The notes below the pieces were generated by a model. It had not been told where the DNA came from. It saw only the letters and a list, made by a program, of their open reading frames with translations, and searched no databases. A stretch of 64,000 nucleotides of DNA from Rathayibacter sp. VKM Ac-2879 (lineage in GTDB: Bacteria; Actinomycetota; Actinomycetes; Actinomycetales; Microbacteriaceae): the NCBI RefSeq assembly GCF_015351245.1, contig NZ_JADKSO010000004.1, positions 124,001 to 188,000 on the forward strand. Reading direction: 5' to 3'. The translations under genes and the position numbers were made by a program. Positions 27,699 through 55,081 of this stretch are shown here, one piece after another. Position 1 is the first letter of the stretch. Each line of letters begins with the position of its first letter.

Positions 27699-27728
27699 GG
27701 GGGCCTTCCGGGAGGGGGTGCGGGAGCC

Positions 27729-27758
27729 GGTGCGCGGGAGCCGCGGCCCCCGCGCACC
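27729..27758. other. Hairpin between the SDR and DUF1772 genes
   Basis: GGTGCGCGGG (27729-27738) and CCCGCGCACC (27749-27758) form a perfect 10-bp stem. On the minus strand it lies just after the SDR stop without a T-tract. It may be a processing or attenuation site within the operon. Confidence 0.45.
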
Positions 27759-27764
27759 GATCGG

Positions 27765-29515: not shown

Positions 29516-29517
29516 GA

Positions 29518-29775: not shown

Positions 29776-29875
29776 CGTTCTGTCCTTCTGCGCGGGTCGA
29801 GCGCCTCCGGCGGAGCGGAGCGGTCGACGGATCGGTGGTCTTCGAGGCGACCGGCCCGGGAGCGTCGCCGGAGCC

Positions 29876-29957: not shown

Positions 29958-30005
29958 CGTCCCGGAACGCGCCGGACGCCCCGGCGGGGCAGGGAGGAAC
30001 AGGGC

Positions 30006-34439: not shown

Positions 34440-34618
34440 CGTGCGCGGGGCATCCGGGCAGCAGCCGGAGACGGCAGCGTATGGGTCTGAGCCGCGTGCG
34501 CATTCCTCCGCCGGGGGAGGACCGCTTGCATGGAGGAAGGACGGAAGGAGCCGGTCGGTCCCGACCGGGCGAACCGCCCCGCCGCACCCGCGGCGCCACT
34601 CAGACGAAGGAGAACCCC

Positions 34619-35431: not shown

Positions 35432-35445
35432 CACGGAGAGGGGGG

Positions 35446-40102: not shown

Positions 40103-40617
40103 TACCGCGCCGCGGGGACCCGGCGCGAGCGGCGCACTCCCCGACGCGCGAGGAGAGCCGCGGCGAAGCAGGCGGTCGCGGCGCTCGAGAGCATGGCCCG
40201 GACCGTGTTGCCGGCGGTCCACTCCGAGGCGAGGGCCGCCCAGGGCGCGGCAGAGGTTGCGGAGGACGCGTCGAGCTGCGCGATCGCCGTATTGCGGGGC
40301 ACGTGGTAGACCACGGTCAGCACGAACCCGGCAAGGTAAAGACAGCTGCCGGCGACGGCGATGGCGGAACGCTCGCCGCGGGGGGCGCGCGCCTGGTGCA
40401 CGAGCGTCGCGACGCTCAGCGCCGCCGCACCGAAGAAGCAGAGCATGAACGGCGCCTGCTCGGCGCCGCGGTTGAACTCCTGCATCCGCGCCAGGCCCTC
40501 GGCGGGAGCAGACGCGGCGAGCGCGGGCATGGCCGAGACCGAGAAGTACGTGTATACGGCGGCGGTGACGCCGGATGTGACGACGGCGGCACCGGAGAGC
40601 AGGCGTGACGTGAGCAT
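40102..40617 (-). CDS. DUF1772-type membrane protein
   Basis: A 171-residue membrane protein with four hydrophobic helices and the family features FNRGAEQAPFMLCFFGA and YHVPRNTAIAQLD. ATG 40617 is preceded by AGAAGGA at 5-6 nt spacing. DUF1772 genes are often found divergent from an AraC gene, as here (40720). It is coupled to the SARP gene. It may be an anthrone-oxygenase-like enzyme or simply the target of the AraC protein. Confidence 0.82.
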   Translation of the reverse strand: MLTSRLLSGAAVVTSGVTAAVYTYFSVSAMPALAASAPAEGLARMQEFNRGAEQAPFMLCFFGAAALSVATLVHQARAPRGERSAIAVAGSCLYLAGFVLTVVYHVPRNTAIAQLDASSATSAAPWAALASEWTAGNTVRAMLSSAATACFAAALLARRGVRRSRRVPAAR

Positions 40618-40719
40618 GAGAGTCCTTCTCATCGAACGGATGGTCGCATCTATACCAGCCGACGAAGACCTGCACGTGAATTCTGCATCCACTCAGATTC
40701 ATACGAGAACGTCTCCGCT

Positions 40720-41643
40720 GTGGACCCACTCTCCGACTTCCTCGACGGGCCTCGCGCCCGCAACGCGTTCCTCCTCCGTGTCGTCATGAGCTCCCCGTGG
40801 GCCATTGACGTCTCGGACGGAGCCCCGCTCACGCTCGTCGCCGTCCTCAGCGGACACAGCTGGGTGGTCCCCGAGAGCGCGCCCGCCGTGCAGCTGCGCC
40901 GTGGCGACGTGTTCGTCGTGGGCGGCGACGCCCCGTACCTGCTCGCCTCCGAGCTCGGGTTGCCGCCGACCGTGCACATCGGCACGGGGCAGGCGTGCTC
41001 CGGGCCCGATGGGCGCGACCTCTCGACCGAGCTCTCGACCGGCGTGCGCACCTGGGGCAACGACGTCGACGGCGAGGACCAGCTGCTGGTCGGCACGTTC
41101 CGCAGCGCCGGGGAGGTGGGGCGCATCCTCCTCGGCGCTCTGCCGCCCACCTTCGTGGTACGCGCCGACGACAACCCCATGGTGGCGGCGCTCGCCGAGG
41201 AGGTGGCCCGCGACGGCATCGCCCAGGGCACGATCCTCGATCGCCTCCTCGACCTGGTGCTGATCCAGGCCGTCCGTTCCTGGTCCGAGATCGCTCGAGA
41301 GGCGCGACCCGACTGGTTGAGCGGGAACCGCGATCCCGTGGTGAAGGAGGCGCTCATGCTGCTGCACGAGAACCCGGGGCGGAGTTGGACCACCGAGTCG
41401 CTCGCCGGCAGCGTCGCCGTCTCGCGCGCCTCCCTCGCCCGCCGGTTCCACGCGATCGTCGGGCAGCCGCCGATGGCGTACCTCACGCAGTGGCGTCTCG
41501 CCCTCGCCGCCGATCTGCTGCTCGACCCGCAGCTGACCCTCTCGGCCATCTCGGAGCGGGTCGGCTACGGCAGCCCCTTCAGCTTCAGCACGGCCTTCAA
41601 GAAGCACTACGGCGTGAGCCCGCAGGGCTACCGCACCGGCTGA
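40720..41643 (+). CDS. AraC-family regulator with cupin sensor domain
   Basis: A 307-residue regulator. The N-terminal part (PLTLVAVLSGHSWV, LRRGDVFVVGG) is a cupin_6-type sensor. The C-terminal double helix-turn-helix includes ESLAGSVAVSRASLARRF and ISERVGYGSPFSFSTAFKKHYG. GTG 40720 gives the family start MDPLSDFLDGPRARNAF. It diverges from the DUF1772-SARP genes across about 100 bp (40618-40719) that must hold both promoters. It probably controls that divergent pair, and perhaps the large operon 127 nt downstream. Confidence 0.92.
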   Translation: MDPLSDFLDGPRARNAFLLRVVMSSPWAIDVSDGAPLTLVAVLSGHSWVVPESAPAVQLRRGDVFVVGGDAPYLLASELGLPPTVHIGTGQACSGPDGRDLSTELSTGVRTWGNDVDGEDQLLVGTFRSAGEVGRILLGALPPTFVVRADDNPMVAALAEEVARDGIAQGTILDRLLDLVLIQAVRSWSEIAREARPDWLSGNRDPVVKEALMLLHENPGRSWTTESLAGSVAVSRASLARRFHAIVGQPPMAYLTQWRLALAADLLLDPQLTLSAISERVGYGSPFSFSTAFKKHYGVSPQGYRTG

Positions 41644-41770: not shown

Positions 41771-43075
41771 ATGACTGCAGGCACCGCGACGGACACGAGC
41801 GTCAGCCCGGCACAGGAGGACGCGGTCGGGAACGGGGCAGAGGCGGCGCTGTCGACCGCCTCGGTGACCGCTCTGGCCGCGAAACTCGCCGCCACTCGGC
41901 GCCGGGTCGGCTCCCTCGAGTCCACCCCGCACCGCCGCAACAGCTTCCTGCCGTACGTCCCGGTCGCGGGGACGCCCTTCGTCGACGTCGAGGGCGAGCG
42001 CCTGCTGATGATGTCGGGCTACAGCTACCTCGGCCTCGCCGGCGACCCCCGCCTCGCCGCCGCCGTCACGAGGGCCGTCGACACGTACGGCACCGGCGCC
42101 CACGGAGTGCGCGCCCTCGCCGGCAGCACTCCGCTGCACCAGGAGCTCGAAGACGAGGTGGCACGTTTCACCGAGCGCGAGGCCTCGCTCGTGTTCAGCT
42201 CGGGCTACGCGGCGAACGTGGGCACGATCGGCGCCCTCTGCGGCCCCGGCGACCACGTCTTCGTCGACAAGCTCGACCACGCCAGCATCGTCGACGGCTG
42301 CCAGCTGAGCGGCGCGACGGTCACCCGCTTCCGCCACAACGACCCGGAGCACCTGGAGGCGCGACTCCTCGCAGCGCCGACCGGAGGCATCCGCCTGGTC
42401 GTCGTCGACAGCGTGTACTCGATGGACGGCGACATCGCGCCGCTGCCGGCGCTGCGCGAGGTCTGCGACCGCCACGGCGCCCTGCTGATGGTCGACGAGG
42501 CACACGCTCTCGGTGTGATCGGCGCGACGGGGCGCGGGATCGAGGAGCACTTCGACCGGACCGTGCGTGTGGACGTCAAGCTCGGCACGCTCTCGAAGGG
42601 CATCCCCTCGATGGGCGGCTGGGTCTCCGGCTCGCCCGAGCTGATCTACCACCTGCGCTACGCCGCGCGGCCGTTCCTGTTCTCGGCGGCGCTGGCTCCG
42701 GCGCAGACGGCGGCCGCCCTCGAGGCGGTCCGTGTTCTGGGCGAGGAGCCGTGGCGCGTGACCCGCATCCAGACGGAGTCGAAGCGGTTCCGTGCGGCGA
42801 TGACCGCCTCCGGCGCGAACGTCGGCGACAGCGTGACCGCCATCGTCCCGCTGATCATCGGCACCGACCTTCAGGCCTACGACTTCGCCACGGCCTGCCG
42901 CGAGGAGGGGGTCGTGGGACTGCCGGTGGTCACGCCGGCGGTGCCGAGCGGGCTCGCCCGCCTCCGCATCGCGATCACCGCCGCGCACTCGCCGGCTCAC
43001 ATCGACACGGCCATCGCCGCCTTCCGCGCGGCGGCGGAGCGCCAGGAGACCGTGGTCGCCGGGAGTGGGTCGTGA
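41771..43075 (+). CDS. Alpha-oxoamine synthase (KAPA synthase-like, PLP)
   Basis: A 434-residue PLP enzyme of the BioF/KBL/SPT/ALAS family, which condenses an acyl thioester with an amino acid and loses CO2. The PLP lysine is Lys276 (GTLSKGIPSMGG). VDEAHALGVIG supplies the Asp that holds the PLP nitrogen. An N-terminal extension of about 45 residues is variable. Primary BioF is unlikely: no other bio gene is near, and it is the first gene of the secondary operon, overlapping the ketosynthase start. In prodiginine and tambjamine pathways such a domain (C-terminus of PigH) adds serine to a pyrrolyl-beta-ketothioester; the same logic may apply here. Confidence 0.92.
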   Translation: MTAGTATDTSVSPAQEDAVGNGAEAALSTASVTALAAKLAATRRRVGSLESTPHRRNSFLPYVPVAGTPFVDVEGERLLMMSGYSYLGLAGDPRLAAAVTRAVDTYGTGAHGVRALAGSTPLHQELEDEVARFTEREASLVFSSGYAANVGTIGALCGPGDHVFVDKLDHASIVDGCQLSGATVTRFRHNDPEHLEARLLAAPTGGIRLVVVDSVYSMDGDIAPLPALREVCDRHGALLMVDEAHALGVIGATGRGIEEHFDRTVRVDVKLGTLSKGIPSMGGWVSGSPELIYHLRYAARPFLFSAALAPAQTAAALEAVRVLGEEPWRVTRIQTESKRFRAAMTASGANVGDSVTAIVPLIIGTDLQAYDFATACREEGVVGLPVVTPAVPSGLARLRIAITAAHSPAHIDTAIAAFRAAAERQETVVAGSGS

Positions 43076-44295
43076 CCGGGCGCGAGAGTGTCGTCATCAC
43101 CGGCATCGGTCTGCTCACCCCCGCGGGCGACACCGTCGAGGCGGTCTGGGACGCCCTGCTCCTCGGCCGGTCGATGGCCCGCACCCTCGACCGGTTCGAC
43201 GCCTCGGCGCACCCCGTGTCGATCGGCTGTCAGGTCGACGCCCGCCGCACGCCGAAAGGAGCCTCCGAGAAGCAGCTGCGTCGACTCGACCCGTTCGCGC
43301 GTTACGGCCTCACCGCCGCGCTGGATGCGGTCGCCGACGCGGGCGCGCCCCGCGTCGATCCGCAGCGCACGACGATCGTGGTCGGCAATGCGGTCGGCGG
43401 CCGCACGACGAGCGACTCCGAGAGCATCGCCTACGCGACCCGCGGCACGGAGGCGGTCAGCCCGCTGATGCCCGTCGTCACCATGCCCAACGCGGCTGCG
43501 GTCGCCGTCTCGATGGCGCTGGGCTCCACGGGTCCCGCGCTGACCCTGGCGACGACTTGCGCGAGCGGTGCCGACGCGATCGGCACCGGCGTCACCCTGC
43601 TCCGCTCCGGCAGCACCGATCTCGTGATCGCCGGCGGGTGCGAGGCGACCCTCAGCCCGGTGACGCTCGCCGCTTTCGCCCGCCTCGGCGCTCTGTCGAC
43701 CCGCTCGGGCGATCCAGCGCTCGCCAGTCGGCCCTTCGACGCCGACCGCGATGGCTTCGTGATGGGAGAGGGGGCTGCGTTCGTCGTCCTCGAGCGCGAG
43801 TCCGACGCCAAGGCCCGCGGCGCCCGGATCCACGGGGAGGTGCTGGGCTACGCGGCGGGCTCCGACGCCCACCACCTCTCGATGCCGCACCCCGAGGGTG
43901 ACGGCGCGTTGCGGGTGATGAGCGCGGCGCTCCGCGACGCGGGCATCGACTCCGCCGACATCGGCCACGTCAACGCGCACGGCACCTCGACCCGTCTCAA
44001 CGACGCCGTCGAGGCGCGGGCGCTCGGGAGGCTCTTCGGCCGGTACGTGCCTCCGGTCACGGCCGTCAAGGGCGTCACCGGCCACCTGCTCGGCGCCTCA
44101 GGGGCGCTGGAAGCGGTGGTCGCGATGCTCGCGGCGCGGCGCGGACTGGTGCCGCCGGTCGCGAACCACGACCGCACGGACCCCGCGATCGCCCTCGATG
44201 TCGTGGCCGGCGTACCCCGCGAGGTCCGGCCCGCACCCGCCCTGAGCACGTCGTTCGGTTTCGGCGGCCACAACGCAGCGCTCGTCGTGGCCTGA
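43072..44295 (+). CDS. Beta-ketoacyl-ACP synthase II-like ketosynthase
   Basis: A 407-residue FabF-type ketosynthase. The Cys-His-His triad is complete: Cys163 (TTCASGADA), His303 (NAHGTSTRLND) and His338 (GHLLGASGALEA). It therefore should condense, not only decarboxylate. The GTG start overlaps the alpha-oxoamine synthase stop (GTGA), so the two enzymes are made together and probably act in sequence. The likely donor is a PCP- or ACP-bound acyl group, possibly pyrrole-2-carbonyl. Confidence 0.93.
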   Translation: MTGRESVVITGIGLLTPAGDTVEAVWDALLLGRSMARTLDRFDASAHPVSIGCQVDARRTPKGASEKQLRRLDPFARYGLTAALDAVADAGAPRVDPQRTTIVVGNAVGGRTTSDSESIAYATRGTEAVSPLMPVVTMPNAAAVAVSMALGSTGPALTLATTCASGADAIGTGVTLLRSGSTDLVIAGGCEATLSPVTLAAFARLGALSTRSGDPALASRPFDADRDGFVMGEGAAFVVLERESDAKARGARIHGEVLGYAAGSDAHHLSMPHPEGDGALRVMSAALRDAGIDSADIGHVNAHGTSTRLNDAVEARALGRLFGRYVPPVTAVKGVTGHLLGASGALEAVVAMLAARRGLVPPVANHDRTDPAIALDVVAGVPREVRPAPALSTSFGFGGHNAALVVA

Positions 44296-44331
44296 GCACA
44301 CCCCGCCGACCGACCCCTCGAAAGGACCACG

Positions 44332-45159
44332 ATGACGATCCCCACAGCATCGCCCGCTACCGCGCTCCGCGGTCTGCTCCGCTCCGCGCTCGGCAGGCCG
44401 TCGCGCACCGACGCGCTGAACCCGGTCACGGCGTTCCTCGCCCTCCACCCGGCGCTGACCGAGTACCTCGGCGCTGTCGCCGGCCACATCGACGTCGTCG
44501 TCCACCTCGGCCAGGAGCTGCGCCTTCTCCGTCCCGAGCTGCTCGACGGCGATGCGCCGACCTCGGTGCGCTGTCGTCTGCGTGAGGTCCGCTCCGACGC
44601 CCGGGGCGCGGTGGTGACCGTCGACAGCGTCCTGCTCTCCGAGGCCGGCGACGAGATCGCCTTCGGAGTCTCGACCGTGCTCCTCGGCGGAGTCGATCCT
44701 GAGGCTCTCCGGACGCACCTGGACGGCGCCGGGCAGCGAGTGCCCGCCCCTGCCGCCCGCCCTCGGGCCGGTGCGCCTGTCGTGTCGGCGACGGTCCCGG
44801 TCTCGGCGGCGTTCAGCGCTCTGTACGCCGGGGTCTCGGGCGACGACAACCCCCTCCACCTCGACGCCCGTGCGGCGCGCGGTGCCGGGTTCGACGGACC
44901 GATCGCGCACGGCATGAGCGTCGTCGCCCTCGCGCTCGAGGTCGCGGCCGACGCGGTGCTGGACGGTGACCTGTCCCGCATCCGGTCGGTCGGCGTCCGC
45001 TTCTCGGCGCCCGTGCTCTGCGGCTCAGAGCTCGCCGTCGACGTGGTCCCCGCCGAAGACCCGTCCGTGCTCGTCCTGCGGGCGCGCACTCCAGGGGGGC
45101 CCGCCCTCAAGGCGGCCTGGATCGGCATCGCGCCCGCGCTTGAGCGGAGCGGGGCGTGA
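44332..45159 (+). CDS. MaoC-like (hotdog) dehydratase
   Basis: A 275-residue protein with two hotdog folds. The C-terminal one has YAGVSGDDNPLHLDARAARG, with the Asp and His of (R)-specific enoyl hydratases, and FDGPIAHGM. The N-terminal half is degenerate, as in FAS1B-like and HtdX-type dehydratases. AAAGGA sets ATG 44332. It would dehydrate a beta-hydroxyacyl thioester, perhaps one formed by the SDR at 27765. It overlaps the ligase start by 4 nt. Confidence 0.87.
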   Translation: MTIPTASPATALRGLLRSALGRPSRTDALNPVTAFLALHPALTEYLGAVAGHIDVVVHLGQELRLLRPELLDGDAPTSVRCRLREVRSDARGAVVTVDSVLLSEAGDEIAFGVSTVLLGGVDPEALRTHLDGAGQRVPAPAARPRAGAPVVSATVPVSAAFSALYAGVSGDDNPLHLDARAARGAGFDGPIAHGMSVVALALEVAADAVLDGDLSRIRSVGVRFSAPVLCGSELAVDVVPAEDPSVLVLRARTPGGPALKAAWIGIAPALERSGA

Positions 45160-46685
45160 GCGGGCTGGTCGCCGAGCGGTTCGCGCCCACCCGGCTCTCC
45201 GCCGCATCCCCGCTCGTCGCGGCGATCCTCGGGCACGCGGAATCGCGTCCGGACGCCGTCGCGCTGCAGTGCGGCGACGAGACCCTGAGCTACTCCGAGC
45301 TCGCGACCCTCGCCCACGAGCTCGCCGCGAGCCTGCCCGACGACGACGTGCTCGCAGTCCTCGCCCACAAAACAGCGCGGACCGTCGCGTTCGCGCTCGG
45401 CGCCCTCGCCGCCCGCCGCTCCGTCCTTCTGCTCGCGCCGACGATGCCGGAGGACCGCTCGGCCGCGGTCGTCGCCGCCGCGGACATCCGGATCCTGGTC
45501 GACCCGCGCCCCGGCGGCCCCGTCGCCGTCCGGCCGCACGCCGTCCCCCGACACAGCGGCCGGCGTCACGGCGACGGATCCGCCGCGCCCCGGCTCCTGC
45601 TCACCACGTCGGGGACCACCGGTGTCCCCAAGGTGGTGTCGATCCCGCTCGACGCGGTCGAGCGCTTCGGTGCGTGGGCGAGGAGCGAGTTCTCGCTCTC
45701 GTCTGCGAGCACCGTGCTCAACCTCGCGCCGCTCAACTTCGATCTGACGCTGCTCGAGGTCTGGGCGACCCTCGCCTCGGGTGGCCGGGCGGTTCTGGTG
45801 CCGCCGGAGCGCGCCGTTCGCGGCGGTCACGTGCTCGACCTGATCGAGCAGGGTGCGGTCGACCTCGTGCAGGCGGTGCCGACCTTCTACCGGCTCATGC
45901 TCGAGAGCGCCACCGCGCACGGGCGCACCCTCCCCTCGGTCTCGACCCTCGTCTTCACCGGGGACCGGGTCGACGCGGACCTGCTCGGCGGGCTCCGCAT
46001 CCTCTTCCCAGCAGCGCGGATGCTGAACGTCTACGGCATGACGGAGACGAACGACAGCTTCGCTCACGAGGTCGGAGCACAGGAGGGCACCGGGGCCCTG
46101 CCGATCGGGATGGAGCTGCCCGGCGTCGCGGTCCGCGTCCGCGCCGAGGACGGCACGCTCTCCGACCACGGAACAGGCGAGCTCCTCGTGAGCACGCCGT
46201 TCCAGGCGGAGGGCTACCTCGACCGGACGGCGTCCGCCGAGCGCTTCGTCACCCTCGACGGCGGTGACGGGCGGGTCTTCGTCCGCACCGGAGACCTGGT
46301 CGACCGCCGGCCCGGCGAGCCGACGCGGCTGCTCGGGCGCCTGGACCGGCGCGTCAAGATCCGTGGCCTCGCTGTCGATCTCGCGGAGATCGAGCGGATC
46401 CTCGAGACACATCCGCTCGTCGGCGCCGCCGTGGCCGTGGCCGAGCCGGACCCGATCGCCGGCCACAGGCTGGCCGCGGTCGTGCAGCGCGCGTTCCCGT
46501 CCGACCTCGACCTGCTGGAGCTGCGCTCCTTCGCGGCGATGCGTCTCGCGAGCGGTAGCGCCCCGAGCGAGTTCCACGTCACCGACGCCCCCTTCCCTCT
46601 GACCATCACCGGCAAGACCGACCGATCCCGTGCGCTCTCCCAGGCGCGCGGCCATCTCGAAAGGGACGACCATGAGCAGCACTGA
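45156..46685 (+). CDS. Adenylate-forming enzyme, prolyl-AMP-ligase-like
   Basis: A 509-residue free-standing A domain. Core motifs are intact: TTSGTTGVPK (A3), NVYGMTETNDSF (A5), RTGDLVDR (A7), KIRGLAVDLAEIE (A8) and ITGKTDR with the catalytic Lys (A10). The TETNDSF form of A5 is what I recall for L-prolyl-AMP ligases such as PltF, PigI and RedM. Together with a PCP and a flavin dehydrogenase in the same operon, loading of L-proline is the best guess. Substrate residues were not extracted, so another amino acid is possible. GTG start overlaps MaoC; the stop lies 14 bp inside the PCP gene. Confidence 0.88.
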   Translation: MSGLVAERFAPTRLSAASPLVAAILGHAESRPDAVALQCGDETLSYSELATLAHELAASLPDDDVLAVLAHKTARTVAFALGALAARRSVLLLAPTMPEDRSAAVVAAADIRILVDPRPGGPVAVRPHAVPRHSGRRHGDGSAAPRLLLTTSGTTGVPKVVSIPLDAVERFGAWARSEFSLSSASTVLNLAPLNFDLTLLEVWATLASGGRAVLVPPERAVRGGHVLDLIEQGAVDLVQAVPTFYRLMLESATAHGRTLPSVSTLVFTGDRVDADLLGGLRILFPAARMLNVYGMTETNDSFAHEVGAQEGTGALPIGMELPGVAVRVRAEDGTLSDHGTGELLVSTPFQAEGYLDRTASAERFVTLDGGDGRVFVRTGDLVDRRPGEPTRLLGRLDRRVKIRGLAVDLAEIERILETHPLVGAAVAVAEPDPIAGHRLAAVVQRAFPSDLDLLELRSFAAMRLASGSAPSEFHVTDAPFPLTITGKTDRSRALSQARGHLERDDHEQH

Positions 46686-46986
46686 CACCACCACGCCCAC
46701 CCTCTCCGCCGCAGAGGCGGCCCTGGACCCCGACGAGGTCGTCCAGGCTCTGCGGGTCTACCTCGTGGAGGAGTTCCTCCCGGGTACCGCGCCCGAGCGG
46801 GTCGGCACCGACCTCGACCTGATGAACAGCGGAGTCATCGACAGCCTCGGCCTCCTCAAGCTGATCGCCTGGATCGAGAGCCGCTTCGAGGTCGGAGTCG
46901 ATGACACCGACCTCGACCCGGAGAACTTCCGCAGCCTCACCGCGATCGCCGGCTTCGTCTCCCGCGCGCGCTCCGACGGGCGATGA
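46672..46986 (+). CDS. Peptidyl carrier protein
   Basis: A 104-residue carrier protein. The phosphopantetheine site is NSGVIDSLGLLKLIAW, with Ser in DSL. Its form, IDSLGLLKLIAWIE, is like the PltL/PigG/RedO carriers of proline-derived pyrrole pathways. GAAAGGGA just upstream of ATG 46672 sets the start, 14 bp inside the ligase gene. The ligase should load it and the PPTase at 26536 should activate it. Confidence 0.92.
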   Translation: MSSTDTTTPTLSAAEAALDPDEVVQALRVYLVEEFLPGTAPERVGTDLDLMNSGVIDSLGLLKLIAWIESRFEVGVDDTDLDPENFRSLTAIAGFVSRARSDGR

Positions 46987-48005
46987 CCTCCTCGAGGCTC
47001 GTCCGCCTCCTCGACGAGGGGCGGTGCGTCCCGCTCGAGGAGTGGACCGCGTTTTGGACCCGCGTCGAGGACCGCGCCGGCGATCCCGGAGAGCTCGTCG
47101 CCGTGCTGACCGCCGCCTCGCGCGCGCTGCCCCGCGACGAGACACTCGTCGCGTTGGTGCGCTCTCTCGCTCCGGCCGCGGTGCCGGCTCCCGTCCCCGC
47201 TGTCGACATCGTCGGGATCGGCGGAGGCCCCTCCACCATGAACCTCTCGACGGCCGCCGCCTTCGCCGCCGCCGCCGCTGGGGCCAGCGTGCTGAAGTCG
47301 GGCTCGCGGGCCTACACGTCCTCGCTCGGCTCCACCGATCTGCTCGGCCGTCTCGGCCTGCGCGCCGACGCGGACGCCGAGCAGGGCGAGCGGTACCGCC
47401 GTCGCGACGGCCTCGCCTTCCCCGGACGGCACGCCCATCCGGTCGAGCTGGTGCGCCTGGCGCGCCGGATCGTCCCGGTCGGCCTGCGCGAGTTCGGCGG
47501 TCTCCTCAACGTCATCGGGCCGTTCCTCTCCCGCACCCCGGTCTCCGCCGTGGTCGTCGGTCGGTCGGACCGTGCGGGGGAGCGGACCCTCCGTGCTCTC
47601 GCCGGTGCCCGACCGGAGCGGTCGCACTGGATCTGCTCGAGTGCGGTCGGTGCGGACGAGCTGATCAGCGTGAGCCCCAGCCGGCTCGTGCGGCCCGACG
47701 GTCGGGTCGAGCGGATCGAGCCCGGCTCCCTCGTCTCCGGCTCCGGATCGATGGCCGAGCTGCGCGCGGTCGCTCCGGAGGCGGCGGCCGAGCACTTCTC
47801 GCGGGCTCTGTCCGGCCGGCTCGGTACGGCGGTCACCGAGACGATCACTCTCAACGCCGCGGTCGTCCTGCTCGCCGGCGGAGTGGAGTCGGAGCTGCCC
47901 GCCGCCGTCGACCGCGTGCGGTCGGGCCTGGAGTCGGGTGCGGCCGCGGGCCTCCTCGAGCGTCTGCGCTCCGAGGCGCGGGAAGGGGCGGCCCTCCATG
48001 CCTGA
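46983..48005 (+). CDS. Divergent anthranilate phosphoribosyltransferase-like protein (TrpD homologue)
   Basis: A 340-residue member of the TrpD family, which transfers ribose-5-phosphate from PRPP to the amine of anthranilate. The glycine loop and following segment are recognisable but altered: GIGGGPSTMNLSTAAAF instead of GTGGD...NIST, and KSGSRAYTSSLGSTD instead of KHGNR...GSAD. By eye the residues that contact anthranilate (His107, Asn109, Arg164 of the Sulfolobus enzyme) become Ser, Ser and Val. PRPP use looks plausible, but the acceptor may not be anthranilate. The ATG overlaps the PCP stop. Partners are the TrpA-, TrpF- and TrpC-like genes downstream; no trpE, trpG or trpB is near. Confidence 0.82.
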   Translation: MTSSRLVRLLDEGRCVPLEEWTAFWTRVEDRAGDPGELVAVLTAASRALPRDETLVALVRSLAPAAVPAPVPAVDIVGIGGGPSTMNLSTAAAFAAAAAGASVLKSGSRAYTSSLGSTDLLGRLGLRADADAEQGERYRRRDGLAFPGRHAHPVELVRLARRIVPVGLREFGGLLNVIGPFLSRTPVSAVVVGRSDRAGERTLRALAGARPERSHWICSSAVGADELISVSPSRLVRPDGRVERIEPGSLVSGSGSMAELRAVAPEAAAEHFSRALSGRLGTAVTETITLNAAVVLLAGGVESELPAAVDRVRSGLESGAAAGLLERLRSEAREGAALHA

Positions 48006-48810
48006 GCGGACGCTGCTCCCCGCCCGTCCGTTTTTCTCGGAGCGCAGCAGGTCGACCGGTCTCGCACTGTTCCTGAACGCGGGCGACCCCGCCGACGACG
48101 AGCTCGTCGAGCTCGCCATCGCGATGGACGAGGCCGGTGTCGACTGCCTCGAGTTGGCGGTCCCGTTCCCCGACTCGGTGACCGACGGCCCGGTGATCCG
48201 CGCGAGCGCCGAGCGGGCCCTCGCCGCCGGAACCGACCTCGCCGCCACTCTGCGGCTGGTCACCCGGATCCGCGAGCGCACCGAGCGCCTGCGCGTCGCC
48301 CTCCTCGTCGACTGGAGCCACTCCCTCCGCGGTCGAGACCTCGCTTCGAGCCTGCGGGACGTCCGGGCGTCGGGCGCCGACGCGGTGCTCGTGCACGGCC
48401 TGCCGCCCGTGCTGCGGCAGGAGTACCTCGCCGCGGCGGGCGGCGTGGGGCTGCCGGTGGTGACCACCTGCTACCACGGCACGTCGTCGCCCGAGACGAT
48501 CGCCGCCGCCGGGAGGGACGCGACCGCCTACGTCTACCTCGTCGCCCGTTACGGCCGCAGCGGGACCCCCTCCGACGACTCCTTCGCCGCCCTCGCTGGG
48601 ACCGTCGCCGAGCTGCGTCGCAGCACCTCGGCTCCGATCGCGGTCGGGTTCGGCGTGGCCACGGCCGACGACGTCCGGCAGCTGGCCGGGCTCGGCGTCG
48701 ACGCGGCCATCGTCGGCACGGCCGGCGTCCGCGCCCTCCGATCCGGGTGCGACGGCCCCGTCGCCGCGTTTCGCTCGTTCCTCACCGGCCTCCTGCCGGC
48801 CACCCGCTGA
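47998..48810 (+). CDS. Tryptophan synthase alpha-like protein (indole-3-glycerol phosphate lyase type)
   Basis: A 270-residue TIM barrel of the TrpA family. The catalytic Glu (Glu52, in LELAVPFPDS) and Asp (Asp63, in VTDGPVI) are retained, and the phosphate loop reads GFGVATADDV. TrpA splits indole-3-glycerol phosphate into indole and glyceraldehyde-3-phosphate. There is no trpB here, so if active it would release free indole or an analogue, as plant BX1/IGL enzymes do. The ATG overlaps the TrpD-like stop by 8 bp. Sequence divergence from housekeeping TrpA is considerable. Confidence 0.87.
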   Translation: MPERTLLPARPFFSERSRSTGLALFLNAGDPADDELVELAIAMDEAGVDCLELAVPFPDSVTDGPVIRASAERALAAGTDLAATLRLVTRIRERTERLRVALLVDWSHSLRGRDLASSLRDVRASGADAVLVHGLPPVLRQEYLAAAGGVGLPVVTTCYHGTSSPETIAAAGRDATAYVYLVARYGRSGTPSDDSFAALAGTVAELRRSTSAPIAVGFGVATADDVRQLAGLGVDAAIVGTAGVRALRSGCDGPVAAFRSFLTGLLPATR

Positions 48811-48848
48811 CCCCCGCACTACCCACCGCATCTCGGAAGGAAGCAGCC

Positions 48849-49223
48849 ATGCTGATTAGGAAGCGCACCGACGTCCCCACCGTCGAATGGGGCAACGGCA
48901 CGAGCGACCGCCTCGTCAACGAGGCCGACGGGCTCGGCTTCGCCGTCGCCCACACCGTCGTCGCCGCGGGAACCCGCTCGCGGCTGCAGTACCGCCGGCA
49001 CATCGAGGCGTGCTACTGCCTTTCCGGCTCGGGCTCCGTCGTGGAGGCCGACGGGACGGTCCACGAGATCGTCCCCGGCACCCTCTACGCCCTCGACCTG
49101 CATGACCCGCACGAACTACGGGCCTCCGAGGACGAAGACCTCCACCTTGTCTCGATCTTCAACCCGCCGATCACGGGCACCGAGCGCCACCGGCTCGACC
49201 CGTCCGGCTACTCCCAGTACTGA
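48849..49223 (+). CDS. Ectoine synthase-like cupin (orphan EctC)
   Basis: A 124-residue cupin strongly resembling EctC: HIEACYCLSGSGSVVE, PGTLYALDLHDPHELRA and VSIFNPPITGTE. The metal ligands by family position are Glu53, Tyr80 and His88, and all are present. EctC closes the ring of ectoine by condensing an amine with an amide carbonyl. EctA and EctB are absent from the window, so a related ring closure or dehydration in the cluster product is more likely than osmoprotection. GGAAGGA precedes ATG 48849. It starts 38 nt after the TrpA-like gene. Confidence 0.9.
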   Translation: MLIRKRTDVPTVEWGNGTSDRLVNEADGLGFAVAHTVVAAGTRSRLQYRRHIEACYCLSGSGSVVEADGTVHEIVPGTLYALDLHDPHELRASEDEDLHLVSIFNPPITGTERHRLDPSGYSQY

Positions 49224-49235
49224 GCGGACGCTCCT

Positions 49236-50381
49236 ATGACGATCCTCGACACCCCAGCCCTCGCGACCGCCGACCTCATCGCGGAGCGCCTTGCGGCGGC
49301 CTTCGACCCCTCACATGCGCGCCCCGCCGACGAGACCGTCTTCGACCGTGCGGGGTGGGACCGCCTCCGCACGACGGGGATCCTCGGTGCCCCCTTCGAC
49401 CCGGTCGTCGGCGGGGCCGGCCTGAGCTACCGTGAGTCCCTCCCGCTGCTGGAGGCGCTCGGCCGCCTCAACCACGACGCGGGCCTCTCGTTCGCGGCCG
49501 TCACCACGATGGCCAGCACCGCGGTCGCCCTCTCACGCTTCGGCTCGGCCGAGCACCGCGGGAGCATCTTGCCGGAGGTGGTCGGCGGGCGGCTCTTGGC
49601 TGCGCACGCCATCACGGAGGAGGGAAGCGGCTCGGACGCGCTGGGCATGGCGACCCGCGCGGTGCGCGACGGCGACGGATTCGTCCTCGACGGAGCGAAG
49701 ACCTTCGTCACGAACGGCGGCCTCGCGGACGTCTACGTGGTCTACGCCCGGACGTCGGAGGTGCCTGGGCCGTTGGGCATCACCGCCTTCCTCGTGCCCG
49801 CGGGAACCCCCGGCTTCACCGTCGGACGCCGTCTCCCGACGCTCGGGCTCTCGGGCAGTCCGCTCGCGGAGCTCTCCTTCGAGGGTTGCCGGCTGCAGGC
49901 CTCGAGCGTGGTCGGCCGGGTCGGTGGCGGGTTCCTCGTGCTCGATCACGTGATGGAGCGCGAGATCCTGTTCTCCTTCGCCGTCAATGTCGGCGAGATG
50001 GTCCGCCGCGAGGCGCGTGTCGTCCAGTGGTGCCGCGAACGGGTCCAGTACGGCCGGACGATCGGCTCGAACCAGGCGATCTCCCACAAGGTGGTCGACA
50101 TGCGGATCGCCTCCGACACGGCTCGGATGTGGCTGCAGGCGGCGGCCGACCGCCTCGACGCTGGTGTCTCGGCGACCACCGAGATCTCGATCGCCAAGCT
50201 CGTGACCAGCCGCGCCACTCTGCAGTCGAGTCTCGACGCGCTGCAGATCTTCGGCGGTCGCGGCTACCTGACCGAGCACGGGATCGAGCGCGACCTGCGC
50301 GACTCCGTGGCCGGACCCATCTACTCAGGCACGAACGAGATCCAGTACAACCGGGTCGCGGCAATGATCGGCCTGCGTTGA
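49236..50381 (+). CDS. Acyl-CoA dehydrogenase-like, probable prolyl-PCP dehydrogenase
   Basis: A 381-residue FAD enzyme of the acyl-CoA dehydrogenase fold. It shows AITEEGSGSDALG and FVTNGGLADVYVV in the middle domain, and QIFGGRGYLTEHG with DSVAGPIYSGTNEIQ at the C-terminus. The family includes PltE, PigA and RedW, which oxidise L-prolyl-PCP by four electrons to pyrrolyl-2-carboxyl-PCP. The presence of a matching ligase and PCP in the operon makes this the best assignment. Another acyl-PCP substrate cannot be excluded without the catalytic base position. The start follows the cupin stop by 12 nt. Confidence 0.87.
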   Translation: MTILDTPALATADLIAERLAAAFDPSHARPADETVFDRAGWDRLRTTGILGAPFDPVVGGAGLSYRESLPLLEALGRLNHDAGLSFAAVTTMASTAVALSRFGSAEHRGSILPEVVGGRLLAAHAITEEGSGSDALGMATRAVRDGDGFVLDGAKTFVTNGGLADVYVVYARTSEVPGPLGITAFLVPAGTPGFTVGRRLPTLGLSGSPLAELSFEGCRLQASSVVGRVGGGFLVLDHVMEREILFSFAVNVGEMVRREARVVQWCRERVQYGRTIGSNQAISHKVVDMRIASDTARMWLQAAADRLDAGVSATTEISIAKLVTSRATLQSSLDALQIFGGRGYLTEHGIERDLRDSVAGPIYSGTNEIQYNRVAAMIGLR

Positions 50382-50392
50382 GGAGCGCGCGC

Positions 50393-51079
50393 GTGGTCAA
50401 AGTGTGCGGAGTCGTGGCCGCAGCCGAGCTGAGCCTGCTCGCGGCCGCCGGCGCGACCGACGCGGGTGTGTGGTGGGGGGTGCCCGGCTCGCCCCGCTCC
50501 CTCTCAGTGCCGCAGCTGGCCGCGGTCGCGCGCGACCGGTCCCCGATCCGCCGAGCGCTGGTCACCTTCTCCTCCGACGCCGACGGGATCGCACTCGCGG
50601 CTGCCGCGCTGGAGGCCGACTGGATCCAGCTGCACGCGTTCCAGCGGCCCTCCGTCGTCGACGAGCTGCGTCGGAGGCTCGCCGACTCCGGCCGCGCCTG
50701 TCGCGTCGTGAAGGTGCTGCACCTCGACGGCGGGGTCCTCCTGGAGGCGCCGTTCCTCGGCGCGTACGGACGCGCGGGGGCTGACGGCTACCTGGTCGAC
50801 ACCGTCGCGGGCGGCAGGATCGGCAGCACCGGGGTCCGAGCCGACGCCGGTGTGCTCCGACGAGCGGTGGAGCGGCTCGACCGGCCGTTCCTCGTCGCGG
50901 GGGGCCTCGGCGCCCGCGACGCCGACCGCGTCGCGGACCTGGCTGCGAGCGAGCACTGGCAGGGGATCGACGTCGACGGCTCGGCGCGCGGCGTCCACGG
51001 CGCCCTCGATGCGGTGGCCGTGGCGGCCCTGGTCGACGCGTGGGCCCCGCAGCTCGGGCGCCGCGCGGTGCCCGCGTGA
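50393..51079 (+). CDS. Phosphoribosylanthranilate isomerase-like protein (TrpF homologue)
   Basis: A 228-residue TIM barrel of the TrpF family. The general base Cys is present at the N-terminus (VKVCG) and the general acid Asp in GYLVDTVAGG. The phosphate-binding GGTGxxFDW is replaced by GRIGSTGVRAD, while FLVAGGLGARDADRV and GIDVDGSARG keep the later loops in modified form. It would carry out an Amadori rearrangement of the TrpD-like product. GTG 50393 follows GAGGAG at 5-6 nt and places VVKVCG as in the family. Its stop overlaps the TrpC-like start. Confidence 0.85.
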   Translation: MVKVCGVVAAAELSLLAAAGATDAGVWWGVPGSPRSLSVPQLAAVARDRSPIRRALVTFSSDADGIALAAAALEADWIQLHAFQRPSVVDELRRRLADSGRACRVVKVLHLDGGVLLEAPFLGAYGRAGADGYLVDTVAGGRIGSTGVRADAGVLRRAVERLDRPFLVAGGLGARDADRVADLAASEHWQGIDVDGSARGVHGALDAVAVAALVDAWAPQLGRRAVPA

Positions 51080-51765
51080 GCGTGTCGCCGTTCGTCGCGG
51101 CCGTCCTCGCCTCGGAGGTGCGTCTGATCATGGAGATCAAGCGTCGCTCCGCCGCCGGAGTCGATCTGACCGCCGGCCGGACTACCGCCGAGCTCGTCCG
51201 GCTCTACGAGGACGCCGGCGCGCCGTGCCTCTCCGTGGTCACCGGGCGCTGGTTCGGCGGCGACCCCGCGATGCTCGAGGACGTTCTGCGCTCCACGAGC
51301 CGCCCCGTCCTGCAGAAGGACTTCTTCACCAGGCGGGCGCAGCTGGATCGCGCCGCAGCGGCCGGAGTCTCGGCGGTGCTGGTGACCGCGCAGCTCCTCC
51401 GGCGCGAGAGCCTCGAGGCCCTCGTCGAGCACGCGCTCGAGATCGGGCTCACCCCTTTCGTCGAGGTGGTCTCGGCGGCGGAGGTCGCTGTGGTGCCCTG
51501 CACGCACGCGTGCGTGATCGCGGTGAACAACAAGGACATCCGCGACCAGGAACGCGGGAGCGCCCGTCTGGAGCGGAGCCTCGAGCTCGTCGACCGGGTC
51601 GTCGCCACCGGCACGCCCCTGCCTGTCAGCGCGAGCGGAGTCGAGTCGCTCGAGGACGTCGAACGGCTCCTCGGCGCCGGGTATCGCGGGCTGCTCGTCG
51701 GCAGCTCGCTCCTCGCCGGGTCGCTCGCGAGCACCTTGCCTGTCGGGCCCCGGACCGCGCGATGA
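51076..51765 (+). CDS. Indole-3-glycerol phosphate synthase-like protein (TrpC homologue)
   Basis: A 229-residue TIM barrel, shorter than usual TrpC (about 255-270) because most of the N-terminal extension is missing. Catalytic residues are visible: Glu20 and Lys22 (IMEIKRRS), Lys81 (LQKDFF), a Glu in FVEVVSAAEV, Asn in AVNNKDI and Ser in VSASGVES. TrpC closes the pyrrole ring with loss of CO2 and water. The GTG at 51076 overlaps the TrpF-like stop; a GTG at 51082 is the alternative. It overlaps the thioesterase start by 4 nt. Confidence 0.88.
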   Translation: MSVSPFVAAVLASEVRLIMEIKRRSAAGVDLTAGRTTAELVRLYEDAGAPCLSVVTGRWFGGDPAMLEDVLRSTSRPVLQKDFFTRRAQLDRAAAAGVSAVLVTAQLLRRESLEALVEHALEIGLTPFVEVVSAAEVAVVPCTHACVIAVNNKDIRDQERGSARLERSLELVDRVVATGTPLPVSASGVESLEDVERLLGAGYRGLLVGSSLLAGSLASTLPVGPRTAR

Positions 51766-52484
51766 CCGGCCTGCCTGTCGTCCTGCTGGCGCCGCCCGCG
51801 GGCGGGTCTGCGCTGTTCCGTCGCCGTTGGTCCGTCGACCTCGAGGGCCGGGCGTTCGTGCGGATGCCGCCGCGCCCGCGTGGTCCTGGCGCGACGCTCC
51901 TTACTGCCGCACAGGCGCTGGCGTTCGCCGCACCGAGGGGCGGCCGGTGGATGCTGGCGGGCCACAGCCTCGGCGCGCTCGTCGCCTTCGAGGCCGTCCG
52001 CCTCCTCGAGGCCGCGGGAGATCCGCTGCCCGACCGCTTGCTCGTGATGGGGAGCCGTCCGCCCTGCTCCGAGACGGGCCGCTCCTTCGCTCCCGTCGTC
52101 GATCTCGAGGATGACGCCTTCCTGTCCGCACTGGTCGCGATGGGCGCTGTCGACGCGTCGCTGCCCGAGAACCCCCTGCGACGGCTCTTCCTCCCGGGTC
52201 TGCGCGCCGATCTGCGGCTGCTCGTCGGCCACCGGCCGGTGCACGGCGCAGCCGTTTCCGTCCCGCTGGAGGCGTGGCACGGCACGTCCGACCGCCTCGC
52301 CCCGCCGGCCGCGGGCGCGGGCTGGTCGGCCTGCACGAGCGACTCCTTCGCCCTGCGGGTCGTCGAGGGCGGCCACTTCTTCCCGATCGAGCAGTCGGCC
52401 GCAGTGACCGCGGCACTCGGTCGCCCCGGGTGGACAGCGACGGCACCCTTTCGGGGCTCCACGAGCGAAACTCGGCTCTTGTAG
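51762..52484 (+). CDS. Type II thioesterase
   Basis: A 240-residue alpha/beta hydrolase of the type II thioesterase family found beside NRPS and PKS genes. The nucleophile is Ser69 (LAGHSLGAL), and VEGGHFFPIE carries the His. It begins LLAPPAGGSALFRRR, as the family does. It probably removes misloaded groups from the PCP or ACP, or releases the product. ATG 51762 overlaps the TrpC-like stop. It closes the main operon. Confidence 0.9.
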   Translation: MTGLPVVLLAPPAGGSALFRRRWSVDLEGRAFVRMPPRPRGPGATLLTAAQALAFAAPRGGRWMLAGHSLGALVAFEAVRLLEAAGDPLPDRLLVMGSRPPCSETGRSFAPVVDLEDDAFLSALVAMGAVDASLPENPLRRLFLPGLRADLRLLVGHRPVHGAAVSVPLEAWHGTSDRLAPPAAGAGWSACTSDSFALRVVEGGHFFPIEQSAAVTAALGRPGWTATAPFRGSTSETRLL

Positions 52485-52537
52485 GCTGAGAGCGCGAGTG
52501 CTGAGGGGTGCTCGCGTTCACGATCGGAGCCGCCACC

Positions 52538-53533
52538 GTGATCCCTCGTCCGACGCTCACGAATCCCGCCAGCGTGCCGCTCGGCGCCGGAGTCCGCGCC
52601 GTCCGGCTCCGCGGCGCGGAAGGGGTCTCGGCCGTGCGTCGCTCGCTCGACCTCGCGATCGAGCAGGTGCACGGCTTCAGGATGGATCTGCAGATCGCCT
52701 CGATCGAGCGGGTCCGCGTGATGCTCGTCTCGTCGACCCCGTTCTCGACGCGCTGGCCGGGGCCCGGCTTCGAGAGCGGTGCGTCGACGTTCGCGCTGCC
52801 GGTCGCGGGCTCGCTGACGATGCGAGCGGGTCTCGAGCGCGTGACCGTCGCTCGGGGAGGGCTCGTGCTCTCCTCCGACGAGCCCGTCGTCGTGGAGGCC
52901 GAGCAGGCGGTGCGCTTCCTCGTTCTCTGCACGCGCCCTTCGCCGAGCGAGCGCGCGCGACGGCTGGAGGCGACGGATCCGGATCCCGTGCGAGTCGGCG
53001 CCTCCCGCGCGCTGCCCGCGAGCTCGTTGACGGCCGCCGCCCTGGCCCTGCTGCACGGCGTCCTCGCCGAGCTCGACATCGAGCACCCCACCCAGGCCGA
53101 CTATCTCCACGGCATGGTGCTGCGCCTCGCGCGCCTGCTCTGGGCCGACGGCCACGACTCCTCTACCGAGAAGGTCGGCGTGCGCGAGATGGTCGAGGCG
53201 GCCGAGGAGGTCGTGCGCGCCGATGCCGCCGACCCGGCGCTCGACCCTCCCGGGGTCGCCCTGCGCTGCGGAGTGCGGCTGCGCACACTTCAACGCGCGA
53301 TCGCGGAGGAACGCGGGACGACCCTCCGCGACCTGATCATCGCCGTGCGCACCGAGGAGGCGCTCCGTCTCGTGCGCGCGCCGGGCGGAGGCGAGCTGCC
53401 GCTGCGCGACATCGCCGACCGTTCGGGGTTCTCCTCCCCCGAGCGGCTACGGCGCGCGATCGCCGCGCACACGGGGCTCTCGCCGAGCGAGTACCGCCGC
53501 AGGCGGCGGGGCGACGGGCGCGCCACCGGCTGA
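52538..53533 (+). CDS. AraC-family transcriptional regulator
   Basis: A 331-residue regulator. The N-terminal sensor is of the AraC_binding_2 type (DLQIASIERVRVMLVSSTPFS), and the C-terminal HTH reads LRCGVRLRTLQRAIAEERG and IADRSGFSSPERLRRAI. GTG 52538 follows GGAG at 5-nt spacing; GTG 52508 would add 10 residues. A TAGGCT -10-like box at 52482-52487 lies upstream, at the end of the thioesterase gene. It is the right-hand gene of the cluster and probably a second regulator, or it could belong to the flanking genes. Confidence 0.88.
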   Translation: MIPRPTLTNPASVPLGAGVRAVRLRGAEGVSAVRRSLDLAIEQVHGFRMDLQIASIERVRVMLVSSTPFSTRWPGPGFESGASTFALPVAGSLTMRAGLERVTVARGGLVLSSDEPVVVEAEQAVRFLVLCTRPSPSERARRLEATDPDPVRVGASRALPASSLTAAALALLHGVLAELDIEHPTQADYLHGMVLRLARLLWADGHDSSTEKVGVREMVEAAEEVVRADAADPALDPPGVALRCGVRLRTLQRAIAEERGTTLRDLIIAVRTEEALRLVRAPGGGELPLRDIADRSGFSSPERLRRAIAAHTGLSPSEYRRRRRGDGRATG

Positions 53534-53584
53534 GGGCGGCGGCGCCCCTCGCGCAAGTCCCTGTGCCCCTCTCGGCGCCGCGCG

Positions 53585-53590
53585 TAGCGT
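53585..53590 (+). promoter_or_regulatory. Candidate -10 box of ndh
   Basis: TAGCGT lies about 65 nt before the ndh ATG. The gene has its own ribosome-binding sequence, so this transcript is not leaderless. Confidence 0.35.
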
Positions 53591-53655
53591 CGGAGCGTCT
53601 CTCGGCACCGCGCGGGTCCGCCGTGTCCGGTGTCGAGTTCGAGAAGGGACTGGAC

Positions 53656-55050: not shown

Positions 55051-55081
55051 GCGTACGCGGGCGCAACGGAGGTGGCGAGCG

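Follow-up and report, generated by a model that had tools for sequence, protein, structure and literature searches.

A putative glutamine-derived pyrrolopyrrole cassette beside an alpha-oxoamine synthase in a gene cluster of Rathayibacter

What is made by an operon that joins a carrier-protein loading module to relatives of four tryptophan-branch enzymes? Such an operon lies in Rathayibacter sp. VKM Ac-2879, within a 64,000-nucleotide stretch of contig NZ_JADKSO010000004.1 (positions 124,001 to 188,000; G+C content 71.8%) that was analysed as a whole and is called the window here. The original prediction, made from the letters of this DNA, placed the operon at 41771-52484 and read it as a proline-derived pyrrole starter module with a prodiginine-type extension, joined to enzymes for an indole or a fused-pyrrole analogue. 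We favour, by a small balance of probability, a different reading, in which an eight-gene cassette turns glutamine into a pyrrolo[2,3-b]pyrrole acyl unit held on a carrier protein and passes this unit to a fatty acid synthase (FAS)-like line with an alpha-oxoamine synthase (AOS). The gene set, its conservation and the retained residues come from this analysis, and we infer glutamine, the order of the steps and everything after the cassette.

Open-reading frame (ORF), Pfam and NCBIfam searches confirmed that the operon is real, with every gene named in the original prediction present on the + strand within 41771-52484 and best Pfam E-values for these genes ranging from 9.2e-07 (TrpF-like, 29.2 bits, cut-off 22.7) to 1e-58 (AOS). 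The operon opens with the AOS gene of the BioF/SPT type (41771-43075; NCBIfam bioF 384.3 bits, cut-off 426.45; 68-74% identical to AOS-type relatives, with the pyridoxal phosphate Lys kept in 12 of 12), followed by a FabF-like ketosynthase (KS) with Cys-His-His (43072-44295; Pfam; TIGR03150 432.6 bits, cut-off 493.75) and a MaoC-like dehydratase/hydratase with an Asp/His pair (44332-45159; Pfam 3.5e-21). The eight core genes then encode a stand-alone adenylation enzyme, here called the ligase (45156-46685; Pfam 1.8e-45); a peptidyl carrier protein (PCP; 46672-46986; Pfam PF00550 5.5e-07) whose candidate phosphopantetheine Ser is kept in 26 of 26 homologues; a TrpD-like phosphoribosyltransferase (46983-48005; Pfam 3e-27; TIGR01245 117 bits, cut-off 199.05); a TrpA-like retro-aldolase (47998-48810; TIGR00262 129.9 bits, cut-off 102.35); an EctC-like cupin (48849-49223; Pfam 1.4e-32); an acyl-CoA-dehydrogenase-fold enzyme (ACAD; 49236-50381); a TrpF-like Amadori isomerase (50393-51079, start uncertain; Pfam PRAI); and a TrpC-like ring-closing enzyme (51082-51765, start 51076 or 51082; Pfam IGPS 3.5e-38). 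A thioesterase gene closes the operon (51762-52484; Pfam PF00975 5.3e-18; 43% identity to Arthrobacter L007, 38% to L103) and, like the MaoC gene, is additional to those first named. Under the start sites adopted, the 11 gene junctions between AOS and thioesterase include 6 with an overlap of 4 to 14 bases (AOS/KS, MaoC/ligase, ligase/PCP, PCP/TrpD, TrpD/TrpA, TrpC/thioesterase), and the remaining gaps are at most 38 bases.

Relatives of the cassette were collected through its TrpD-like gene. A plasmid tblastn search with the TrpD-like protein gave 20 records, six of which were fetched and four annotated, and a scan of genome contigs gave at least 19 family loci (L007-L025) of 80, recognized by a break in identity between 38-44% and the values of at most 36% for ordinary TrpD. 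Together the six plasmid and 19 contig loci make up the 25 compared here, and all family counts are lower bounds. All eight core genes were present in at least 22 of the 25, which bears out the predicted co-conservation of the trp-like genes with the ligase, PCP and dehydrogenase. The other three (L006, L023, L024) had only PCP, TrpD and EctC matches and are reduced neighbourhoods, two from S. albogriseolus and one from Streptomyces sp. SW4; the ACAD match of L006 is spurious, and ACAD statements rest on the other 23. AOS, KS and MaoC genes lay directly upstream of the cassette in 11 of the 25 (L001, L004, L005, L007, L009, L011-L013, L017-L019), and near it in five lay either a type II KS pair (L002, L015, L016, L025) or a chain length factor (CLF) piece at the end of the locus (L020). 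The remaining loci have different or unread partners. Since 22 loci hold all eight genes and 11 hold AOS-KS-MaoC directly upstream, the association is more than chance. A thirteenth AOS-type cluster, L103 in genome G139 of the same order, carries AraC, AOS, KS, MaoC, the eight core genes and a thioesterase gene; across the AraC gene from these lie anthrone-oxygenase-like, phosphopantetheinyl transferase (PPTase), DUF1772, short-chain dehydrogenase/reductase (SDR) and ketoacyl-ACP synthase III (KAS III) genes. L103 is outside the residue counts and the tree.

The tree, an unrooted maximum-likelihood analysis of a concatenation of the eight core proteins (2147 columns from 23 clusters, L006, L023 and L024 left out), placed L002, L003, L008, L014-L016, L020-L022 and L025 on one side of a branch with 100% ultrafast bootstrap (UFBoot) support and the window with the AOS-type loci on the other, and cassettes with polyketide synthase (PKS) or nonribosomal peptide synthetase (NRPS) partners fell on the opposite side from the window (100% UFBoot). 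The closest branch to the window is its sister, Arthrobacter L007 (100%). L010, which had no AOS or KS matches in the stretch examined, also falls on the AOS-type side, where the inner branching is partly weak (37-71%).

Is this cassette known? The original prediction knew of no described pathway with such a mix, which is partly wrong. Literature searches, with most subscription papers outside their reach, found no account of an AOS-type cluster, of its product or of a glutamine origin. The eight-gene core, however, matches the cassette of kosinostatin/quinocycline biosynthesis (kst, ksn). Two of the compared loci belong to strains discussed in that connection: N. alkaliphila (L022), for which PMC7918784 reports an almost complete kosinostatin cluster, and S. 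spiroverticillatus JCM 4609 (L025), whose cluster is described in PMC13099267 as near-identical to the validated ksn cluster. The same report states that kosinostatin was lost when ksnC3, which is TrpF-like, was replaced (PMC13099267), and ksnC3 is presumably the TrpF-like gene of this cassette. The core is therefore very probably a known functional unit. L022 and L025 share with the window the ligase code and the EctC, TrpC, TrpD and TrpF signatures, whereas the surroundings differ: the window has a single FabF-like KS, with AOS, MaoC, KAS III, SDR and anthrone-oxygenase-like genes instead. Queries from S. xanthii L002 found no window counterpart of the CLF partner, type II acyl carrier protein (ACP), aromatase or transglutaminase-like gene, and its KS-alpha and CLF both matched only the one KS of the window. 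A kosinostatin cluster was thus set aside for the window, as it has no type II PKS; branched octose sugar genes were not seen among the annotated cluster parts, in which no search was aimed at them. PKS, NRPS and sugar modules of kosinostatin are described as far commoner than the whole cluster (PMC13099267). An antiSMASH kosinostatin-like region is reported for Subtercola endophyticus (PMC9287328) and may be of the AOS type.

Other features of the relatives were recorded alongside. In S. clavuligerus pSCL4 (L003, 12.7-20.0 kb) the cassette adjoins three more adenylation-type matches on the opposite strand, probably an NRPS and so a third kind of cassette partner. The Gram-negative Azospirillum griseum (L021) has all eight cassette genes in rearranged order, with a UbiD-like decarboxylase, an amine oxidase-like enzyme and an AfsA-type hotdog protein among them. 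A transglutaminase-like gene lies between ACAD and TrpF in L002, L014, L015, L016, L020, L022 and L025, whereas neither the window nor any of the 11 AOS-type loci gave a match to it; it possibly serves a releasing or joining step for the acyl unit in kosinostatin-type pathways.

Which substrate enters the cassette was approached through the ligase. Its ten-residue code, placed by motif against GrsA numbering, reads D-L-[LF]-Q-x-T-x-D-S-K in 23 of 23 ligases, those of L022 and L025 included, and DLLQVTVDSK in the window, so that the window and kosinostatin-type ligases very probably share one substrate. Asp235, which we take to be the usual contact of the alpha-amine, and Gln278 are kept in 23 of 23. 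Position 278 is also Gln in both published glutamine codes compared (DAWQFGLIDK and DAWQTGLIDK) and Tyr in the proline code DVQYIAHVTK, as these are given in PMC2866473. The predicted proline specificity thus appears unlikely from the code, which is unlike the single published proline code compared.

The EctC-like cupin speaks more directly to glutamine, and its residue pattern is stronger evidence than the ligase code. In the P. lautus enzyme, according to PMC6344544, the metal ligands are Glu57, Tyr84 and His92, Tyr52 and Glu57 contact the amide nitrogen, Thr40 contacts the alpha-amine and Asn38 the carboxylate, with Asn38 listed as fully conserved in the EctC set compared there. In the cassette family W21, S23, R25, T40, Y52, E57, Y84, H92 and F106 are kept in 26 of 26 proteins, that is, the metal and most substrate contacts of ectoine synthase, whereas position 38 is T, A or C in all 26, as expected if the substrate carboxylate is held as a thioester. 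The ectoine genes ectA and ectB were not seen among the annotated cluster genes, where no dedicated search for them was made. A side reaction of Halomonas EctC is reported to convert glutamine to a five-membered cyclic amidine, ADPC (PMC6344544), which is a proline-type ring bearing a 5-amidine.

Prolyl-PCP dehydrogenases oxidize a carrier-bound proline ring, and a single two-electron oxidation of an ADPC-type ring by a relative of these enzymes would give a 5-aminopyrrole. The ACAD of the window is such a relative in part: the predicted likeness to prolyl-PCP dehydrogenases holds in that its best NCBIfam models are RedW and PigA, both of this function, but the scores (296.5 of 650 and 292.5 of 500) are far below their cut-offs. 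In alignment with the solved prolyl dehydrogenases 5zw0 and 4irn, a Glu that we take to be the catalytic base is kept in 23 of 23 family ACADs; it is Ala in the deposited variant 6af6.

The four Trp-like enzymes were aligned to solved structures (the sole TrpF match was weak, 0.093), with residue numbering and roles as we assume them. Catalytic positions are largely retained, Glu51, Lys53, Lys110 and Glu159 of the TrpC-like, Glu49 and Asp60 of the TrpA-like and Cys7 and Asp126 of the TrpF-like enzyme being kept in 23 of 23; the TrpD-like enzyme keeps Lys106, Asn89, Ser91, Asp223 and Glu224 in 26 of 26. Other positions are changed: in the TrpC-like enzyme Glu210 is Ala and Arg182 is Lys in 23 of 23, while Asn180 is present in 22, Ser211 in 21 and Ser56 in 2, and in the TrpD-like enzyme Asp83 is Gly, His107 is Thr or Ser, Asn109 is Ser and Arg164 is Gly or Ala in 26 of 26. 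Positions 83, 107, 109 and 164 are presumably those that bind the metal of phosphoribosyl pyrophosphate (PRPP) or anthranilate, and with 107, 109 and 164, the anthranilate-binding residues, replaced throughout, the site is not of the tryptophan type. The window shares all four families with the tryptophan branch, and its TrpA-like protein passes the family cut-off, whereas the TrpD- and TrpC-like proteins score below theirs and the TrpD acceptor site is changed. A separate second TrpD-type match was present in 5 of 5 genomes checked, which suggests that the cassette TrpD is distinct from a housekeeping copy. Plain indole formation was set aside on account of the changed TrpD acceptor site, while the predicted alternative, a product with a fused-pyrrole analogue of indole, is judged probable.

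These observations can be arranged into a seven-step route. The ligase would load L-glutamine on the PCP, and the EctC-like cupin would condense its alpha-amine with the side-chain amide to the cyclic amidine 5-iminoprolyl-PCP, from which the ACAD would remove two hydrogens to give 5-aminopyrrole-2-carbonyl-PCP, a carrier-bound analogue of anthranilate. By chemical analogy, this thioester would be a good stand-in for anthranilate with the next four enzymes: the TrpD-like enzyme would add phosphoribose to the amine, the TrpF-like enzyme would carry out the Amadori rearrangement, the TrpC-like enzyme would close the second pyrrole ring and the TrpA-like enzyme would split off glyceraldehyde 3-phosphate, leaving 1,6-dihydropyrrolo[2,3-b]pyrrole-2-carbonyl-PCP (free acid C7H6N2O2). 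The net effect of the Trp-like steps would be the addition of two ribose carbons as the second pyrrole ring (C5H6N2O2 to C7H6N2O2), with glutamine as the direct source of five carbons and both nitrogens.

Several points weigh against this route. TrpC normally decarboxylates its substrate, and the proposed substrate has no carboxylate at that position; a stand-alone prolyl ligase code starts with DLLY, the first three positions of which are shared with this family; we know of no product for any AOS-type cluster; and the assignment of nicotinic acid by Ma et al. (2013) reportedly rests on feeding and enzyme assays. The best ACAD match in the Protein Data Bank (PDB) is 6cxt, labelled butyryl-CoA dehydrogenase (226.8 bits), ahead of a prolyl-PCP dehydrogenase (214.3), and two solved prolyl ligases are among the PDB matches of the ligase (4.1e-36 and 1.3e-32), although linear gramicidin synthetase and other entries rank ahead of them. 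The ligase code alone is weak evidence, because of its eight fixed positions only 3 and 3 are shared with the two glutamine codes, 2 with the proline code and 2 with the code of DhbE/MxcE. The source that describes the EctC contacts also proposes an Asn38-Thr40 proton relay (PMC6344544), so that the loss of Asn38 might reflect a change in catalysis and not a carboxylate that is masked. Finally, the literature derives the kosinostatin cassette from nicotinic acid and ribose, as cited in PMC7918784, PMC5321127 and PMC8400222.

This last point is the basis of the rival that survives best, which we consider unlikely: the ligase would load nicotinic acid, a ring contraction costing one carbon would turn this into a pyrrole, and the pyrrolopyrrole would then be made from that. 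As tabulated in PMC7918784 (Table 5), the kstB genes are assigned to nicotinic acid loading and conversion to pyrrole and the kstC genes to pyrrolopyrrole formation with PRPP; the code identity between L022, L025 and the window would extend this assignment to the present cluster, and the carbon count is the same once one carbon is lost. Asp235, however, is kept in 23 of 23 ligases, while DhbE/MxcE, reported to accept nicotinate, have the code PLPAQGVVNK (PMC8400222), and by our reasoning the nicotinate route gives the EctC-like cupin no clear role and offers no source for the second nitrogen. According to PMC7918784, the 28ISP2-46 cluster does not include KstB7, the deformylase proposed for the carbon loss, and the other near-complete clusters compared there reportedly lack it too; its absence fits glutamine better, though the published assignment stands against this. 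Breakdown of nicotinate to glutamate-type compounds might reconcile both origins.

Another carrier-bound amino acid, such as a diaminobutyrate or ornithine derivative, closed by the EctC-like cupin to another cyclic amidine, is improbable. EctC normally acts on N-acetyl-diaminobutyrate (PMC6344544), and the polar ligase code is close to none of the four codes compared; nevertheless, a five-membered amidine of the right carbon count comes most directly from glutamine (our reasoning), and no acetyltransferase was seen among the annotated operon genes, where no dedicated search was made.

The original proposal of proline, oxidized to pyrrole-2-carboxyl-PCP and extended as in prodiginines beside a separate indole-type unit, is the most improbable, since the RedW/PigA ranking and prolyl-dehydrogenase alignment of the ACAD, the co-occurrence of AOS and KS as in prodiginine pathways and the DLL shared with stand-alone prolyl ligases are set against Gln278, Asp330 and Ser331, which differ from the published proline code and apparently from stand-alone prolyl ligases too, against ACAD scores far short of 650 and 500 and a KS that is not PigJ-like, and against the changed TrpD anthranilate site and the occurrence of the same cassette without AOS in kosinostatin-type loci.

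How far does the cluster of the proposed glutamine cassette extend? The interval of the original prediction is too short, because the cluster also includes a conserved left arm, reaching from about 26569, with the ketoreductase, KAS III, ACP, flavoenzyme and PPTase genes; the full cluster spans about 26.57-52.48 kb, and 41771-52484 is its right half. Genes of the Streptomyces L005 locus used as tblastn queries matched, within 26.57-34.3 kb of the window, the PPTase, SDR, KAS III, ACP-like, FMO-like, FAD-linked, SRPBCC and alpha/beta hydrolase genes, and its methyltransferase had no window counterpart. On the - strand lie the PPTase-like (4'-phosphopantetheinyl transferase) gene (26569-27059, ends approximate; 41% by tblastn to the annotated L005 PPTase; homologues in Arthrobacter L097, Spirilliplanes L100, Actinoplanes L102 and L103), a small Anthrone_oxy/DUF1772 protein, copy 2 (27222-27764; Pfam PF08592 4.8e-08; hidden Markov model (HMM) 1.7e-36), the FabG-like SDR ketoreductase (27765-28526; Pfam adh_short 2.5e-51; NCBIfam 3oxo_ACP_reduc 228.5 bits, cut-off 297.75; 66% identity to Streptomyces L005, 72% to Arthrobacter L097), KAS III (28523-29524; Pfam; NCBIfam PRK09352 317.2 bits, cut-off 249; 72-75% to relatives) and the ACP-like protein (29518-29790), assigned by homology to relatives, with a candidate Ser in the motif DVDS[LM]DLMEWLY, invariant in seven aligned homologues; it had no NCBIfam match, and its Streptomyces homologue no Pfam match. 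The + strand follows with an FMO/Baeyer-Villiger-like flavoprotein monooxygenase (29958-31508; Pfam FMO-like 2.9e-17; 54-60% to relatives), what we take to be an FAD-linked oxidase with a twin-arginine-like N-terminus (31505-33037; weak NCBIfam FAD-oxidase matches; 41-55% to relatives; no homologue found in Actinoplanes L101/L102), an SRPBCC protein (33034-33510; 39-51%), an alpha/beta hydrolase (33511-34377; 32-39%) and an NmrA-like NAD(P)H-binding protein (34600-35431, start approximate; Pfam; 72% to Arthrobacter L097, 68% to Spirilliplanes L100). Next to the operon are a SARP-type regulator with BTAD and AAA ATPase domains (36650-40102, - strand, in an ORF to 40729 with the real start lower; Pfam BTAD 3.4e-22), which has homologues in AOS-type loci and L010, copy 1 of the small protein (40102-40692, - strand; Pfam PF08592 1.3e-10) and an AraC-family regulator with a Cupin_6 domain (40720-41643, + strand; Pfam; 57% to Arthrobacter L007 and to L103).

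This arm is largely shared by AOS-type clusters. Apart from the ORF at 35428, the left-arm genes recur in identical order in the Arthrobacter stretches (L097-L098), and most of them are also present in Spirilliplanes and Actinoplanes couchii (L099-L102). KAS III, SDR and the ACP-like gene were found in 10 of 12 AOS-type clusters, L005 as query source counted and the two without them (L009, L019) being short stretches, and KAS III with SDR in 11 of 13 once L103 is included. KAS III and the ACP-like gene were in none of 11 other family loci in the stretches examined, among which three had weak SDR matches (27-34%) and L010 a SARP regulator. An HMM of the anthrone-oxygenase-like family, built from the small proteins of the window, L007, L017 and L018 (which match by construction), found further members in L001, L005, L009, L011 and L012, and showed that the window and L018 each have a second copy; there were none in 14 other family loci or in the AOS-type loci L004, L013 and L019. 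The 61 control loci, which carry ordinary TrpD, were likewise negative, a weak control as many are from distant phyla. The + strand ORF at 35428-36618 encodes a protein without a Pfam match and without a counterpart in the Arthrobacter stretch.

The setting of the cluster varies between relatives. In four relatives (L093-L096), from the five that matched a flanking gene best, clpC is grouped closely with lysS and a PLD-family gene, the distance from PLD to clpC being 0.1 to 4.6 kb. The corresponding interval of the window measures about 29.7 kb and contains the cluster, and the operon of Arthrobacter L007 likewise ends directly before clpC. The cluster therefore seems to be inserted in a variable region before clpC, and the region upstream of clpC (window 26.6-56.2 kb; L007; L093-L096) was noted as a possible insertion hot spot. 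Between operon and clpC, at 52508-56065, the window has an AraC regulator, an NADH dehydrogenase-like flavoprotein and a pirin; these are probably outside the pathway, because clpC directly adjoins the thioesterase gene in Arthrobacter L007. The cluster is rare in the genome samples taken: matches at E 1e-30 or better came from 2 of 396 genomes of the sampled order, namely the centre genome and G139, the genome of L103. A scan with the same query and cut-off gave none among 398 genomes of one family, that of G130, which is closest by flanking gene; this is probably the family of the window too.

What would become of the pyrrolopyrrole acyl unit is suggested by the genes around the cassette. 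KAS III, the FabF-like KS, the ketoreductase, MaoC and ACP resemble a small FAS-like line, which could make a short unsaturated chain to be joined to this unit, and the window KAS III, ACP and ketoreductase recall the alkylpyrrole branch of prodiginine biosynthesis (RedP/Q/R/L/K). In prodiginine alkylpyrrole and bipyrrole formation the AOS adds an amino acid with loss of CO2, and the AOS here would do the same. The ligase, PCP, ACAD, KS and AOS classes are all common to the window and to prodiginine/tambjamine clusters (pig, red), whereas the window proteins fall below the RedW, PigA and PigJ cut-offs, the ligase code differs from the published proline code and the Trp-like and EctC-like genes are extra. 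The KS in particular is FabF-like rather than prodiginine-type as first supposed, passing the broader FabF subfamily model (424.4 of 387) and reaching 63.5 of 900 with PigJ. Judging from the anthrone-oxygenase-like, FMO-like and FAD-linked enzymes, oxidations may follow late in the pathway. The order of these post-cassette steps is a guess and a doubtful one.

Fused pyrrolopyrroles appear to be rare among natural products, and their formation in kosinostatin has been worked out only in part. Of what is described here, the cassette and its kosinostatin context were known, and the AOS-type cluster appears to be new. With two types of cluster carrying it, the cassette is shown to be portable, a unit that unrelated assembly lines can take up. 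We tentatively suggest, at somewhat less than even confidence, that its Trp-like enzymes act on a carrier-bound, glutamine-derived 5-aminopyrrole as a thioester mimic of the tryptophan pathway, which would revise the published nicotinate origin and make the window cluster the source of a new, non-anthracycline class of pyrrolopyrroles. The substrate proposal drawn from the conservation data is precise and testable and departs from the published one, and the clusters of the window, Arthrobacter, Spirilliplanes, Actinoplanes and Streptomyces are the targets in which its product may be sought.

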